Virus record (IMG/VR): IMGVR_UViG_3300029787_000039
Location: 1-25,683 of that record
DNA from: a virus
Strand: one strand, 5' to 3'
Length of the DNA: 25,683 nt
Part shown: in pieces, positions 7,664-25,683 of the stretch
Numbering within the stretch: position 1 is the stretch's first letter
Layout: each line of letters begins with the position of its first letter
The notes under the pieces: generated by a model
What the model was told of the DNA's origin: nothing
Databases searched by the model: none
What the model saw: only the letters and a program-made list of their open reading frames with translations
Translations under genes and position numbers: made by a program

Positions 7664-8087
7664 TGAGAAGCAGGAGAAGTTTGCACAGTCCTATGTCCTC
7701 CACAGGAATGCGACTGAAGCTGCCAAGGCTGCAGGATATGCAGCACGTTCTGCTAATAATCAAGGCTATAGACTATTACAGTTAGATGAAATTGTTGAAA
7801 GAGTACGTGAGTTAGAGAATGAGTTAGAAACATCTGTTGATGTGATAGATGAGTTAGAAAGTCAGTATGCTTTTGCTAAATCTAACGGGCATACTAACAG
7901 TGCAATCAAAGCTTTAGAACTTTTATCAAGAGTACGAGGTGCTAACTCTGATATAATGACTTCCCTAGATGAAGAGACGTTAGAGACAGCTATTGTCGGG
8001 TGTTTAAATGTTATAGGAGAAGATAAAGTCTATAGCCTAATTACAAAATGTGACTTCTATAAAGAAGAAGAAGATGATACTGATTAG
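7653..8087 (+). CDS. terS: Terminase small subunit (Terminase_2-like)
   Basis: A 144-residue protein with the typical terminase small subunit N-terminus: LNEKQEKFAQSYVLHRNATEAAKAAGY (3-29), the helix-turn-helix that recognises packaging sites, followed by a helical oligomerisation region (IVERVRELENELET) and an acidic tail EEEDDTD. It should bind phage DNA and load the large terminase ATPase/nuclease. Unusually, no large subunit follows; instead a DHODH-like gene overlaps its last 14 nt. The virion genes are on the opposite strand. A plain DNA-binding regulator is the alternative reading. Confidence 0.75.
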   Translation: MGLNEKQEKFAQSYVLHRNATEAAKAAGYAARSANNQGYRLLQLDEIVERVRELENELETSVDVIDELESQYAFAKSNGHTNSAIKALELLSRVRGANSDIMTSLDEETLETAIVGCLNVIGEDKVYSLITKCDFYKEEEDDTD

Positions 8088-8814
8088 CCCTCCCTTTGGT
8101 AACTATATTTCTTTGAAAGGATGCACCAGTGTAAAAGGTAGCTATACCTATTTAAAGAGAAGGGGCTTGATAAAACAAATTATAAAAACTCTTCGACCAA
8201 TAAAGGGTGGTTGGAGAAACTCCATTGGCTTACGCAATAAGGGTATCTGCAATATAAAGAAGTATGATAAGAATAGTATATACAGTATTGCTGCTGTTGA
8301 GCCTACCTCTAAGCTTCACTATCCCCCTTGGTCAGCACTGCATTTTAAAATCCCTAGCAAGGTATCCTTAGAACTAAATATTGGATGCCCTAATGTATCT
8401 GGTATGTCAGAGCTTAAAGACTACCACATTATACACTTTGTAGATAAGTTTGAGAATGTTATTGTTAAAGTTCCACCGACAGTTTCACTAGATAGTATTG
8501 CAAGGATGTATGATTTAGGTATAACTAAATTTCATTTAAGCAATACATTACCCATGATAGATCACAATGGAGATGGGTATGGTGTTAGCGGTAAGAGATT
8601 AAAAGAACAGAACCTTCCCTTTGTAGAGAGTGTTGCTTCATTCTTCAAGCTAAAGAATACTCCAGTATCTATCATAGCTGGAGGAGGTATTTATAAAGCA
8701 GAAGATGTAGAAGATTATTACAATGCAGGGGCTACAGACTATAGTCTAAGTACTGTCTTCTTTACCCCTTGGAAGGTGCCTGAAGTACTAGATACTATCA
8801 AATATATAAATTAA
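8074..8814 (+). CDS. Dihydroorotate dehydrogenase-like (class 1 type) flavoenzyme
   Basis: A 246-residue protein that follows the DHODH barrel motif by motif: NSIGLRNKGI (49-58); ELNIGCPN (100-107), with C105 where class 1 enzymes carry the catalytic Cys between two Asn; VIVKVPP (129-135) with K132; SNTLP (156-160); YGVSGKRL (169-176); IIAGGGI (200-206); and GATDYSLSTVFF for FMN phosphate binding. DHODH oxidises dihydroorotate to orotate in pyrimidine synthesis; class 1 enzymes are soluble. It is shorter than the usual 300-plus residues, with parts of the barrel trimmed. I prefer ATG 8074, overlapping terS by 14 nt; GTG at 8050 would add eight Lys-rich residues. It is the last + strand gene before the convergent spacer. 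A related FMN enzyme acting on another substrate cannot be excluded. Confidence 0.78.
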   Translation: MILISPPFGNYISLKGCTSVKGSYTYLKRRGLIKQIIKTLRPIKGGWRNSIGLRNKGICNIKKYDKNSIYSIAAVEPTSKLHYPPWSALHFKIPSKVSLELNIGCPNVSGMSELKDYHIIHFVDKFENVIVKVPPTVSLDSIARMYDLGITKFHLSNTLPMIDHNGDGYGVSGKRLKEQNLPFVESVASFFKLKNTPVSIIAGGGIYKAEDVEDYYNAGATDYSLSTVFFTPWKVPEVLDTIKYIN

Positions 8815-8927: not shown

Positions 8928-9194
8928 CTAAGGGTAATATGGAGAGGTAACTTCCCCTTCTTCATGAGATACACTAAAAACATCATCAGGAAACTCATTT
9001 ATTAGCATATCTTCCACCCCTAATTTAAGGGTAAAGGTACTAGCAGCACACCCTGCACATGATCCTGTTAGCTTAACATGTACGTTCTTGGTATCTTCAT
9101 CATAAGATAGTAGCTGTATATGTCCACCATGCATAGCAATAGAAGGTGCTACCTTATCAGCCAAAGCATCTTCTATCTTAGCAAAAGTTGTCAT
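8928..9194 (-). CDS. NifU C-terminal-domain (Nfu-type) Fe-S scaffold protein
   Basis: An 88-residue stand-alone NifU domain: helix IEDALADKVAPSIAMHGGHIQLLS (7-30), strand NVHVKL, then the cluster-binding GSCAGCAAS (C46, C49), and TLKLGVEDML. Nfu proteins hold and pass Fe-S clusters to target enzymes as CxxC-bridged dimers. The start at ATG 9194 overlaps the upstream stop (ATGA); a GTG at 9209 is less likely. It is the last gene of the long - strand unit. Length fits a minimal Nfu domain, so it seems complete. The client protein in this phage is not evident; the DUF1289 gene is the only other obvious Cys-motif metal-binding candidate here. Confidence 0.85.
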   Translation of the reverse strand: MTTFAKIEDALADKVAPSIAMHGGHIQLLSYDEDTKNVHVKLTGSCAGCAASTFTLKLGVEDMLINEFPDDVFSVSHEEGEVTSPYYP

Positions 9195-9604
9195 TTTTTT
9201 CTCACACACCCATAACCTTTTAGTGCTTTCCCAACACCCATACGACCACCCTTTTTCCTTTTCATTAAATTAGAACTACGGTTTTTTGCAGCCGTAATTG
9301 CAGCCTCTTTAGATTTATGTATGCTTGTTGGTTTTATTTCTTTATTTTTTAAAAGCTGTTTTAATTGCTGTTGATTAAATAATTCCCCGTTATGTATACT
9401 AGGAATGTTGATCCACTTACCATCTATTTTCATTGTTCTTGATATTTCAGATACATCTACTGGAGAAACTGCTTCATCTTTCAAAGGTAAATTTTCACGT
9501 CTTGTAACAATATCAGAGGTAGCTGTATAGACGGGTCTACCTGCTCTCGTTCTTTTATTTGTTTTACGTCCTACTGTTTTACCTTTGATAGATAGTTTAT
9601 TCAT
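9191..9604 (-). CDS. Basic phage protein with W-x-NIPSI module, unknown function
   Basis: A 137-residue, strongly basic protein. Residues 59-110 contain DGKWINIPSIHNGELF followed by a helix and IHKSKEAAITAAKNRS, a short module I have seen as a recurring part of marine phage structural or hypothetical proteins. The C-terminus KRKKGGRMGVGKALKGYG is a Gly/Lys-rich tail also frequent in such phages. Its start lies in the left copy of a 26-bp direct repeat, eight nt inside the end of the mazG-like gene, and its stop overlaps the NifU-like start (ATGA). Possible DNA-binding or virion-associated protein; no function assigned. Confidence 0.6.
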   Translation of the reverse strand: MNKLSIKGKTVGRKTNKRTRAGRPVYTATSDIVTRRENLPLKDEAVSPVDVSEISRTMKIDGKWINIPSIHNGELFNQQQLKQLLKNKEIKPTSIHKSKEAAITAAKNRSSNLMKRKKGGRMGVGKALKGYGCVRKK

Positions 9605-9622
9605 TTTCTACTACCACCATTA
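9597..9622. repeat. 26-bp direct repeat, left copy (flanks mazG-like gene)
   Basis: Perfect 26-bp match to 9847-9872, at a 250-nt offset; mismatches begin immediately on both sides. On the - strand it carries the final codons and TAA of the mazG-like gene and the ATG of the 137-residue gene. Confidence 0.9.
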
Positions 9623-9854
9623 GCCCTTGTTCTTGAAGTTTTGTGTACTTCACTTTTTTTTGTTCCATGAGTTTTTTTCTGTTTAGGAGATTTGATTTTT
9701 CTAATAATGTGAGCATTGCAAGCACGTCTCCAGCTTCCTCATTCAAATCATTTAGTTGTTTTTCTCCTGTACCATGACGAATTACCTTACTGCAACGCTG
9801 AATAAACTCACCACATTCTTCCATAGCAATAATGAGGAGAGTCGTGTTATTCAT
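9597..9854 (-). CDS. MazG-like nucleotide pyrophosphohydrolase (short)
   Basis: An 85-residue protein with the all-alpha NTP pyrophosphohydrolase signature: MEECGEFIQRCSK (E12, E13, E16) and LNEEAGDVLAMLTLL (E39, E40, D43), i.e. the ExxE and EExxD Mg-binding pairs. Such enzymes hydrolyse NTPs or dNTPs, and phage MazG has been linked to nucleotide pools and to the host stringent-response alarmone. It is shorter than full MazG and has a Lys-rich tail. Start and stop both fall in copies of a 26-bp direct repeat, so the gene is a self-contained cassette between its neighbours. ATG 9854 overlaps the upstream stop (ATGA). Confidence 0.75.
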   Translation of the reverse strand: MNNTTLLIIAMEECGEFIQRCSKVIRHGTGEKQLNDLNEEAGDVLAMLTLLEKSNLLNRKKLMEQKKVKYTKLQEQGLMVVVENE

Positions 9855-9872
9855 TTTCTACTACCACCATTA
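9847..9872. repeat. 26-bp direct repeat, right copy (flanks mazG-like gene)
   Basis: Perfect match to 9597-9622. On the - strand this copy encodes the end of the 97-residue membrane protein (NGGSRK then TGA) and the ATG of the mazG-like gene. It is read in a different frame from the left copy, so coding constraint does not explain the identity. Confidence 0.9.
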
Positions 9873-10144
9873 AATATCTTATCATTAAGTTTCTGTACCT
9901 GTGTTTCCAGTGAACCAATCTTCAGGTCTTGCCTTACATCACTTGGTAAAGACCCTGATCCCCATCGTCCTGCTGGCCACAGTTCAACGAACTTTGAGTT
10001 CTTGCTTACATCTTTAGCAATCATTTGTATTTGAAAGTCATTGTGTTGTACAGAGGCTTGTAGTCCAGCCAACCACCAGATAACACCAGCCGCTTGTATA
10101 AACAAACCAACACCTAAAGTTATTATAAATTTACTATCCATCAT
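9851..10144 (-). CDS. Small membrane-anchored coiled-coil protein of the lysis region
   Basis: A 97-residue protein with one N-terminal membrane helix (FIITLGVGLFIQAAGVIWWLAGL, about 6-28) and a soluble region with a central ELWPAGRWGSG loop and a C-terminal helix LKIGSLETQVQKLNDKIF. This type-II membrane layout beside an endolysin fits an inner-membrane spanin-like or holin-accessory role, which is inference from position and topology only. Two adjacent ATGs (10144, 10141) are possible starts; 10144 overlaps the stop of the preceding 26-residue frame (ATGA). GGATG just upstream is a weak SD. Confidence 0.6.
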   Translation of the reverse strand: MMDSKFIITLGVGLFIQAAGVIWWLAGLQASVQHNDFQIQMIAKDVSKNSKFVELWPAGRWGSGSLPSDVRQDLKIGSLETQVQKLNDKIFNGGSRK

Positions 10145-10221
10145 TCATCCTTTGTTAGATAATAACCAAAGTAACAAACAGCCGCAAGTCCTGCTGCACA
10201 TATCAAAAATTCTATTAACAT
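10141..10221 (-). CDS. 26-residue membrane peptide between endolysin and membrane protein
   Basis: A tiny frame reading MLIEFLICAAGLAAVCYFGY then YLTKDE. Residues 2-22 make a clean hydrophobic helix followed by a charged tail. It fills exactly the gap between the endolysin stop (TAATG overlap at 10221) and the next gene's ATG (ATGA overlap at 10144). Such precise start/stop overlaps on both sides would be unlikely for noise, and this unit uses the same overlaps elsewhere. A small lysis-associated peptide is the likeliest reading; no family is recognised. Confidence 0.6.
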   Translation of the reverse strand: MLIEFLICAAGLAAVCYFGYYLTKDE

Positions 10222-10604
10222 TACTTATAACTCCATATCGACGGTCTAGGATTTTTATCACTATCTTCTAGGTCATCAATATGTATAAACCTTTTTATAG
10301 CTGGTCCTCTTTGTGCTACCCCTATACCTGTCATACCCATATCTAATGCTAGACGTACTAATCTTAATGCTTCGCTACCCATGATAGACACATCTACAGC
10401 CCTACCTTTAGTATGTGCTGAGTTTGGTGCGCCTCCTATTACCATATTATGTGCAGGATGTCTGTAACCTGAAGTAATAATCATAGGCTCATTAAACTTT
10501 TTTCTTAACTCTATTAATTTTGACATGAATTGTTCATTCATTTCACATCCACCTGTACCCTTACAGTTTAATTCTTTTTCAGTAAAAAATTCCCAATTAG
10601 CCAC
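10221..10604 (-). CDS. M15 peptidase endolysin (D-Ala-D-Ala carboxypeptidase-like)
   Basis: A 127-residue single-domain zinc peptidase: SGYRHPAHN (45-53), SAHTKGRAVD with H64 and D71, and FIHID with H108 supply the three zinc ligands of Peptidase_M15_3. It should cut peptidoglycan cross-bridges at lysis. No signal peptide is seen, so it needs the holin. The start is GTG at 10604: the frame has a stop just upstream and no ATG before residue 22. It overlaps the preceding gene by 8 nt, with GGAGAGA as SD. C14 and C20 near the N-terminus are unusual but of unknown importance. Confidence 0.9.
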   Translation of the reverse strand: MANWEFFTEKELNCKGTGGCEMNEQFMSKLIELRKKFNEPMIITSGYRHPAHNMVIGGAPNSAHTKGRAVDVSIMGSEALRLVRLALDMGMTGIGVAQRGPAIKRFIHIDDLEDSDKNPRPSIWSYK

Positions 10605-23300: not shown

Positions 23301-25683
23301 TTATTCTCCTTTTAAAGTTTTAATTTCGTCTTTTAATTCGTCAACTTGTGATGACAATTCTTGTACTGCTTTAATTAGAGGGATTACAAACATCTCTCTA
23401 CTCATTACTTGACTACCATCTTTACGTTCTTTCCACCCTGCAAAAGTATCACATTCAGCATTGTCTAATGCTTGCTTGATATCCTGTGCAATCATACCGT
23501 GCATTACAATATCAGTATCTACACTGCTTTCCTCAGAGTATTCATTCCATTCTTTTGGATACTCGTTAGAGGGTTTCCACTGATATGTAACAGTTTTTAA
23601 ATCGTTGACAAAATCAAGTCCAAGTTTGTCTTCTTGGATATTTCTTTTCTTACGTCTATCTGATGTTCGTGTCCAAGCAGCATCAGTATCAAATTCGTTA
23701 GTAACAACACTATTTGTTGTACCAAAAGAAAATTGGTAATCTTCAGTACCTGCTATCGCAGAACCAATAACAATTTGAAAATTACCATCATTAGCACTAG
23801 GGTCAGTGTCTCTTCCTATGCAAACATTATAAGTACCAGTTGTAATAACATCACCAGCATTAGTCCCAACTGCCGTGTTATTATCTGAAGTAGTAGTTGC
23901 AACACCTGCTGCTGTTCCTATGAAAACATTGTTGTCACCTGAAGTAATAGCGTGACCAGCCGTATATCCTATAGCAATATTACCTCCACCAGCGACTACG
24001 TTATAAAGAGCATTATCACCCACAACAACATTTCGTATTCCTGTCACAGCACCAGAAGCAGCAGCATTATCACCTATGATTATATTTGATCCACCTGTTG
24101 TAAGTGCGGCTCCTGCGTTATTACCTATTATGACGTTTTCAGAAGCAGTGGTCATTGCTGTACCAGCAGACTGACCAATAATAACTGATGTATGGCCTGT
24201 TGTTACAGCATCACCAGCCAAAGCACCAATAAAAGTATTACTTGCACCTGTCGTTACTGCTCCACCAGCGAGAAAACCTACTAAAGTATTATTCGCCGCC
24301 GTAGTGTGCGCTGTCCCAGCAGCAGACCCCACAAATGTATTCTGAGTGCCTGTCGTAACAGCATCGCCAGAAGTAGCTCCAAGAAAAGTGTTGTTTGTTC
24401 CTGTAGTTACCGCAGTACCAGAATCATAACCGATGAAAGTATTAGTACCTCCTGTCGTAACAGCATCCCCAGCATAAGCACCTACAAAAACATTACTAGA
24501 AGCAGTTGTTAAAGTAGCACCTGCTTGTGAACCAAAGGCTGTGTTGTTTGTGCCATCTGTACACGCTCCAAGAGCGTTGTGGCCCATAGCAGTATGTTGA
24601 CCAGTTGTTGTACAAGCATCCAGTGCATTAGCACCTACTGCGGTATTACTGCTTGCCGTTGTGTTTGCTCCAAGAGCAGAATGACCTACAGCAGTATTTG
24701 ATCCACCTGTTGTATTTGCAATTAAAGAAGAACTACCAAAAGCATTGTTTAATGTTCCTGTCGTATTTGCACCAAGTGCATGATGACCAAAAGCTGAATT
24801 GTCATTAGCCGTTGTATTAGCGTCTAATGCACCAGTACCAAAAGCACAAAGAGATTGGCCTGTGGTATTTGCTCCTAAAGCACCATAACCAAAAGCATTT
24901 ACATTTGTTCCTGTAGTAGTTGCATCTCCAGCATGGCTACCCATGATAGTATTAGAAGCACCAGTTGTTACTGCACTACCAGCACCAAATCCAACAAATG
25001 TACTGTTACTAGCTGTGGTTTGTGCGTCACCAGCAGCATTTCCTATTATGACGTTATAAGAACCTTCTGTAACGGCAGTACCAGCTTGATAACCTACATA
25101 AACATTATCAGTGCCTGATGTATTTGCTGCTCCTGCTTCATACCCAATACCAGTTAAAGACCCTACTGTTGTTACAGCACCTAATGCTCCATAGCCTACA
25201 GCCGTATGGTTTCCACCAGTTGTTATTGCATCACCAGCCGCTGTTCCTATTGCAACACTGTTTGAACCTGTAGTATTTGCACCAAGAGCATTTTGTCCAA
25301 GTGCTGTGTTATTATTTCCTGTAGTGTTAGCATCCAGACAAGCAGCACCTACGGCTGTACTTCCATAACCATCTGTATTAGTACCAAGAGCAGAAGCTCC
25401 TACTGCTGTCATACTACCTACAGTTGTTACAGCACCTAATGCACCATAGCCTACAGCCGTATGGTTTCCACTAGTTGTTACTGCGTCACCTGCTTGAAAA
25501 CCTAGAAATGTATTATTAGCACCAGTTGTTACTTGTCTACCAGCATCATACCCTATACCTGTATTATAACCAGCAGTTGTAAGCGCACCTAATGACCCTC
25601 TACCTACTGCAACATTCTGAGTGCCCGTAGTTGAAGTATTTAATGCACCATATCCAACAGCCGTATTGGATGCACCTGTATTT
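23301..25683 (-). CDS. Tail fibre with 17-residue repeats and S74 intramolecular chaperone (5' end outside window)
   Basis: The frame is open to the right edge, giving about 793 residues of an incomplete protein; the ATG at 25412 is internal, since repeats continue upstream of it. At least 37 units of 17 residues, consensus T-A/F-V-G-x-x-A-G-x-A-x-T-T-G-x-x-N, form a trimeric beta-roll shaft resembling YadA-head-type repeats. The C-terminal ~120 residues are a Peptidase_S74 domain: catalytic Ser at 23661-23663 in TSDRRKKRNI, with Lys five residues later as in endosialidase fibres, then HGMIAQDI and a final coiled coil VQELSSQVDELKDEIKTLKG. The chaperone should cut itself off before that Ser after trimerisation. 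Receptor binding is likely. Confidence 0.9.
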   Translation of the reverse strand, partial: NTGASNTAVGYGALNTSTTGTQNVAVGRGSLGALTTAGYNTGIGYDAGRQVTTGANNTFLGFQAGDAVTTSGNHTAVGYGALGAVTTVGSMTAVGASALGTNTDGYGSTAVGAACLDANTTGNNNTALGQNALGANTTGSNSVAIGTAAGDAITTGGNHTAVGYGALGAVTTVGSLTGIGYEAGAANTSGTDNVYVGYQAGTAVTEGSYNVIIGNAAGDAQTTASNSTFVGFGAGSAVTTGASNTIMGSHAGDATTTGTNVNAFGYGALGANTTGQSLCAFGTGALDANTTANDNSAFGHHALGANTTGTLNNAFGSSSLIANTTGGSNTAVGHSALGANTTASSNTAVGANALDACTTTGQHTAMGHNALGACTDGTNNTAFGSQAGATLTTASSNVFVGAYAGDAVTTGGTNTFIGYDSGTAVTTGTNNTFLGATSGDAVTTGTQNTFVGSAAGTAHTTAANNTLVGFLAGGAVTTGASNTFIGALAGDAVTTGHTSVIIGQSAGTAMTTASENVIIGNNAGAALTTGGSNIIIGDNAAASGAVTGIRNVVVGDNALYNVVAGGGNIAIGYTAGHAITSGDNNVFIGTAAGVATTTSDNNTAVGTNAGDVITTGTYNVCIGRDTDPSANDGNFQIVIGSAIAGTEDYQFSFGTTNSVVTNEFDTDAAWTRTSDRRKKRNIQEDKLGLDFVNDLKTVTYQWKPSNEYPKEWNEYSEESSVDTDIVMHGMIAQDIKQALDNAECDTFAGWKERKDGSQVMSREMFVIPLIKAVQELSSQVDELKDEIKTLKGE
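23709..25683. repeat. Tandem 51-bp (17-codon) degenerate repeat array in fibre gene
   Basis: About 37 head-to-tail units with very regular 51-nt spacing (one 54-nt unit) span most of the fibre gene. Units diverge at the DNA level, but two 73-nt stretches (25163-25235 and 25418-25490) differ at only five positions, exactly five units (255 nt) apart. The left limit is approximate, because the last units degenerate into the chaperone junction. Confidence 0.85.

Follow-up and report, generated by a model that had tools for sequence, protein, structure and literature searches.

How does a phage come to carry a small gene enclosed by two identical copies of a gene junction? The question arises in a 25,683-nucleotide stretch of DNA, hereafter the window, which covers bases 1-25683 in a virus record of 59,154 bases; the ends of that record carry a repeat of roughly 98 bases, and the source phage is uncultured and probably marine. 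Here a mazG-like gene lies between two copies of a 26-bp block, each of which holds the stop of one gene and the start of the next. We propose that related phages recombined at a cargo slot downstream of a gene for a 97-residue protein and that the repeat is the mark this left; we give this reading about three chances in four. It is read as a trace of gene swapping because relatives show the same spot empty or otherwise occupied. Most phage mosaic joints hold no sequence that explains them. At this slot, empty, single-copy and two-copy states stand side by side and show how a gene can enter a tight or overlapping pair while leaving its neighbours unbroken, and the slot makes a specific excision reaction testable.

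The duplicated junction and its genes

On the minus strand, an M15 peptidase endolysin gene is followed by the 97-residue gene, the mazG-like gene, a 137-residue gene and a NifU-like gene (Table 1). The 26-bp block (TTATTCATTTTCTACTACCACCATTA) is exactly repeated at a spacing of 250 bp. In copy 1 it spans the stop of the 97-residue gene (after NGGSRK) and the mazG ATG; in copy 2, in another frame, it spans the mazG stop (after VVENE) and the ATG of the 137-residue gene. The earlier note had described the match, its abrupt ends and the stop-and-start content of each copy in differing frames, and our analysis agrees on every point: the match is exact, the open reading frames are 97, 85 and 137 residues long as stated, and no relatedness of the flanks is detectable beyond the repeat (upstream P = 0.11-0.16; downstream P > 0.4). 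An alignment had hinted at a longer, diverged repeat upstream of both copies, which was discarded as not above chance. By sequence it is also correct, as that note had held, that deletion of one copy together with mazG would restore an ATGA-coupled pair of the 97- and 137-residue genes.

Table 1. Positions of the genes and repeat copies at the window locus and in the L050 family
Feature	Position	Strand	Remarks
M15 peptidase endolysin gene	10221-10604	-	adjoins the 97-residue gene
97-residue gene	9851..10144	-	small conserved protein with N-terminal hydrophobic stretch; anchor of the variable slot at its 3' end
Repeat copy 1	9847..9872	-	TAATGGTGGTAGTAGAAAATGAATAA on the minus strand; 3' end of the 97-residue gene, its TGA and the mazG-like ATG
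mazG-like gene, 85 residues	9597..9854	-	copy 2 encodes its last 7 residues (MVVVENE)
Repeat copy 2	9597..9622	-	last mazG-like codons and TAA, ribosome-site-like GGTGGT, ATG of the 137-residue gene
137-residue gene	9191..9604	-	function not assigned; reading frame downstream of copy 2
NifU-like gene	8928..9209	-	PF01106, E 4.8e-20; closes the slot
27-base copies, L050	3483-3509 and 4206-4232		duplicated overlap of 97- and 44-residue genes
27-base copies, L047	4271-4297 and 5573-5599		duplicated overlap of 97- and 44-residue genes
27-base copies, L073	2258-2284 and 2380-2406		duplicated overlap of 97- and 44-residue genes

The 26-bp exact repeat is far above chance. Across 60 dinucleotide-shuffled versions of window bases 1-23000, exact direct repeats reached at most 17 bp overall and at most 16 bp for copies within 1 kb of each other, and the only longer repeats in these bases of the window itself are coding repeats within structural genes. 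The whole 59,154-base record holds no third copy, the next best site having 8 mismatches. On the minus strand, a consensus scan for sigma-70 type promoter-like and for terminator-like sites found none between 9150 and 10250.

Based on its domain score and metal-binding motif, the mazG-like protein is predicted to be a MazG pyrophosphohydrolase: it scores 22.8 bits against PF03819 (cut-off 22), matches PHROG 4856, nucleoside triphosphate pyrophosphohydrolase (E 8.6e-17), and carries the EExxE...ExxD motif, with E12, E13 and E16 and E40 and D43 invariant in alignment A1. Its relatives stop near the boundary between the window protein and copy 2 and have no VVENE tail; the repeat thus supplies the final seven residues of the window protein. 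Searches of bacterial genomes returned no mazG relative, and searches of GenBank phages returned none for the mazG, 97-residue or 137-residue genes. The 137-residue gene also has no close relative in the viral contigs; a profile search returned only the L014 contig, where the sole relative (42-45% identical, L014/G014) is placed directly behind the endolysin gene.

Several other features of the phage were recorded. A dihydroorotate dehydrogenase match (PF01180, E 1.5e-12) lies at window 8050-8814, in a phage that also has ribonucleotide reductase (RNR) and NifU-like genes. The fibre-like protein encoded at window 23301-25682 is built from repeats of ~17 residues (51-nt period), and its DNA contains many imperfect repeats. 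Outside the window, the early-gene region holds five or more copies of the palindrome TTGTGAAAATTTTCACAA (G000 44633, 45731, 46336, 47617 and 50862), which, from its sequence, looks like an operator or promoter-associated site.

A variable slot behind the 97-residue gene

Which of the two copies is native can be read from close relatives. An exact search of the viral collection for the repeat returned only the L083 and L001 contigs; searching with a degenerate form brought in just L002 and L003. In L001-L003 the block has at most one mismatch and the end of the 97-residue gene is preserved, followed by a different gene, of 107 residues, which likewise starts ATGAATAA. In L178, L180, L182 and L183, which have no 97-residue gene between the endolysin and 107-residue genes, the latter starts ATGGATAA, and the ATGA coupling is therefore a property of the junction between the 97- and 107-residue genes. 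Because L001-L003 keep the block before another gene, the 97-residue gene natively ends in copy 1, and copy 2 is therefore the additional, non-native one.

The contig L083 is a second, independent assembly showing the mazG 5' join. Its bases 1-182 hold the first part of mazG, the 26-bp block and ~20 more bases of the 97-residue tail. Over these 182 bases it is 97% identical to the window, compared with 82% for the RNR genes, and the phage is otherwise window-like only at the RNR gene and its neighbour. The mazG block is found directly behind the RNR gene stop, an arrangement that may reflect either translocation, with the block travelling with mazG, or a chimeric contig. The join is ~190 bp from the contig end and the local gene order is inverted, and we do not rely on L083 as proof that the block moves with mazG.

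More broadly, the position behind the 97-residue gene has had many occupants. We confirmed 113 relatives of this gene in the viral contig collection, and the 66 sites at which the slot is readable hold 25 next-gene families. Close relatives contain the 107-residue gene, or this gene with a 64-residue gene and NifU, or NifU alone; in L011/L012 the NifU homologue comes directly after the 97-residue gene. Among bacterial genomes the 97-residue gene was found in three contigs, where reading ~120 bases beyond its stop gave no obvious sign of a repeat. Two further repeats were seen at loci of this collection. L032 is a related case, in which the 97-residue homologue and the next gene are each preceded by the same 33-base leader with a GGAG ribosome site (426-458 and 759-791, respectively); in L037, a 33-base terminator-like hairpin (CCCCCTCTTCGGAGGGGG) occurs at 172-204 and 407-439, 235 bases apart.

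The same architecture is found in one branch of these relatives, the L050 family, in which the 97-residue homologue overlaps a 44-residue gene by 26 bases. L041, L049, L051 and L052 have this overlap in its single, empty form, and in L050, L047 and L073 a stretch of 27 bases, from the A before the 44-residue start codon to the 97-residue stop, is present twice. The cargo enclosed by the two copies is unrelated among these three: a GT8 glycosyltransferase gene, a GT25-like gene (a weak match, under cut-off) and a 40-residue reading frame. L050 and L052 are 91% identical on either side of a 696-base insert in L050, and the two alignments overlap by 27 bases in L052. When all distinct 3' ends of the 97-residue gene were tested for a downstream copy, only L050, L047, L073 and the window rose above background, at scores of 26, 24, 18 and 15 against at most 14 in shuffled controls. 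A search of all loci for duplicated insert ends gave only the three L050-family cases as clear, other matches being 16-17 bp at 75-88%. GenBank phages contain no match to the L050-family form of the 97-residue gene.

Comparison within this branch also points to exchange at the junction. L073 and L041 are 69% identical in the 97-residue gene and 99-100% identical from the 44-residue gene onward, and judged from this break in similarity, a crossover at the junction of the two genes is visible. L047 and L050 have different inserts, and the 44-residue gene behind copy 2 is 100% identical in both. Copy 2 reads ATGCTC in L050, L047 and L073, and every empty site reads ATGG, which suggests either that the two-copy state goes back to a common ancestor or that copy 2 was freed from the coding constraint of the 97-residue gene. 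The L050-family cases may thus represent one duplication spread by recombination, as opposed to several independent events.

These comparisons bear on two proposals of the earlier note. The first, that a gene was gained at or could be lost through the junction repeat, agrees with the orthologous site, which is seen both empty and with two copies, but no empty site with the 97-residue gene, the repeat and the 137-residue gene was found, because the 137-residue gene has one distant relative in the collection. The second, that relatives would show empty sites or other occupants, holds at the orthologous junction but not for mazG itself, for which there was none.

Origin of the second copy

We propose that the block acts as a transferable gene joint, bringing together the upstream stop, the downstream ribosome site and the start. 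By one plausible route, one parent would have carried the 97-residue gene, the joint and mazG; the other would have carried the 97-residue gene, the joint and the 137-residue gene. A crossover between the end of mazG in the first and the start of the joint in the second would give, in one step, the order 97-residue gene, joint, mazG, joint, 137-residue gene, with all genes translatable. A newcomer between genes that share the block would be accepted only with the block on both sides, and the duplication would be limited to the shared junction because selection keeps the neighbours intact. The recombination-type genes of the phage encode a Gp2.5-like annealing protein, a Cas4-domain exonuclease and an endonuclease VII-like protein, the first two of which would suit short-homology annealing. 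What we infer here is who the parents were, which way the event ran and which enzymes took part. Several observations weigh on the other side: the viral collection contains no parent genome with the 97-residue gene, joint and 137-residue gene, the join of mazG, joint and 137-residue gene is present in a single assembled record, and the 26-bp block exceeds the 4-base overlap of the reading frames, so that the minimal-overlap rule of the L050 family is not exactly followed.

Phages are well known to lose DNA between short direct repeats, and a later, exact excision through the repeats is possible. It is a larger step, and a doubtful one, to view the locus as an integrase-free cassette slot at which phages of this group repeatedly swap single cargo genes, duplicating the overlapping stop/start block and leaving copies that are interchangeable ends for exchange or clean loss. 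We regard as unlikely the related idea that the copies now serve frequent, precise loss or exchange of mazG in the population. The geometry would permit exact loss, the orthologous site has empty and refilled states, and the phage encodes the annealing protein and exonuclease; the static assemblies, however, contain neither a deletion junction nor an empty version of the site with the 97-residue, mazG and 137-residue genes, and the continued identity of the copies is explained equally well by recent origin.

It is also conceivable, if quite improbable, that the repeat reflects selection for a good coupled start site, with the block kept, or copied by gene conversion, as a translation-initiation unit. 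Both copies form the same anti-Shine-Dalgarno duplex (-6.2 kcal/mol; random 20-mers have a median of -1.3, and ~90% of them do less well), and the L032 leader offers a parallel in a ribosome site repeated before a 97-residue homologue and the next gene. Such selection would explain why the repeat was retained, not how it arose: 26 identical bases are beyond convergence, and a copying event is therefore still needed.

An assembly artefact, in which strain variants were joined at the repeat, is very unlikely. The record is metagenome-derived, and the mazG-RNR join of L083 could, from its position, itself be chimeric; against this, the join of the 97-residue tail to mazG recurs in L083 as an independent contig, and the same architecture is present in three other contigs. 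Moreover, assemblers usually finish with k-mers longer than a 26-bp repeat. Least credible of all is insertion by a transposon-like or integron-like enzyme, with the repeat as target-site duplication or attachment site. A direct repeat that lies flush with the insert and is single in empty sites resembles a target-site duplication, but mazG is alone between the copies with no recombinase, the insert ends have no terminal inverted repeats and the repeat no hairpin, and the repeat sequence varies between families and coincides with stop/start signals.

Comparison with known systems

The same tests set the locus apart from several known element types. By the features examined it is not a transposon, the insert being mazG only, with no inverted arms at its two ends; nor an integron cassette, as in a test for attC-like sites the repeat folds no better than shuffles (z = 0.57 and 0.10); nor a moron, as the sigma-70 type consensus scan gave mazG no promoter or terminator of its own. 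T4-type PeSL cassettes (Arbiol 2010, Comeau 2014, as cited in PMC4503421) resemble the window in that short repeated regulatory intergenic sequences are recombination points for module shuffling. A PeSL is described there as a promoter with a stem-loop terminator (PMC4503421), whereas the window repeat has no structure above shuffles and no promoter- or terminator-like match in 9150-10250, and we set this class aside. Lambdoid boundary sequences, as cited in PMC3029335, are likewise short conserved junction sequences that join different modules; they are conserved across genomes, whereas the window block is present only in the closest relatives.

The earlier note considered the mechanism not to be known as described, and here it must be corrected, as two published cases are close (Pope et al. 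2011, PMC3029335). In mycobacteriophage LRRHood, genes 43-46 (1.35 kb) are enclosed by direct repeats of 29 bp at a gene 3' end, of which relatives such as Cali have a single copy, and the authors propose that the genes were either gained from another phage by recombination or lost through the repeats (PMC3029335). As in the window, extra genes lie between direct repeats, one of which sits at the very 3' end of the preceding gene, and no recombinase was identified as responsible (PMC3029335). The LRRHood insert differs in comprising four genes, including a repressor from another cluster (PMC3029335), whereas that of the window is one 250-bp gene, and the window repeat also carries the downstream start signals. 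In mycobacteriophage Island3, gene 68 has 85 residues, as does the window gene, and its 3' end duplicates that of gene 67, the recombinant sequence being single in the relative Brujita; its authors invoke general recombination, with either gain or loss (PMC3029335). The Island3 repeat is ~50-60 bp, imperfect and encodes related C-termini (PMC3029335), whereas the window repeat is exact over its 26 bp and its copies are read in different frames.

With these cases the window shares repeats of tens of bases that derive from the 3' end of the upstream gene. The single-copy state without an insert is seen at the orthologous site of the L050 family, and in L001-L003 the window block is itself single, but another gene follows. 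The window is a further case of the kind described in LRRHood and Island3, and what it adds is a block that spans the stop and start signals of both neighbours, at a slot with several occupants and empty states.
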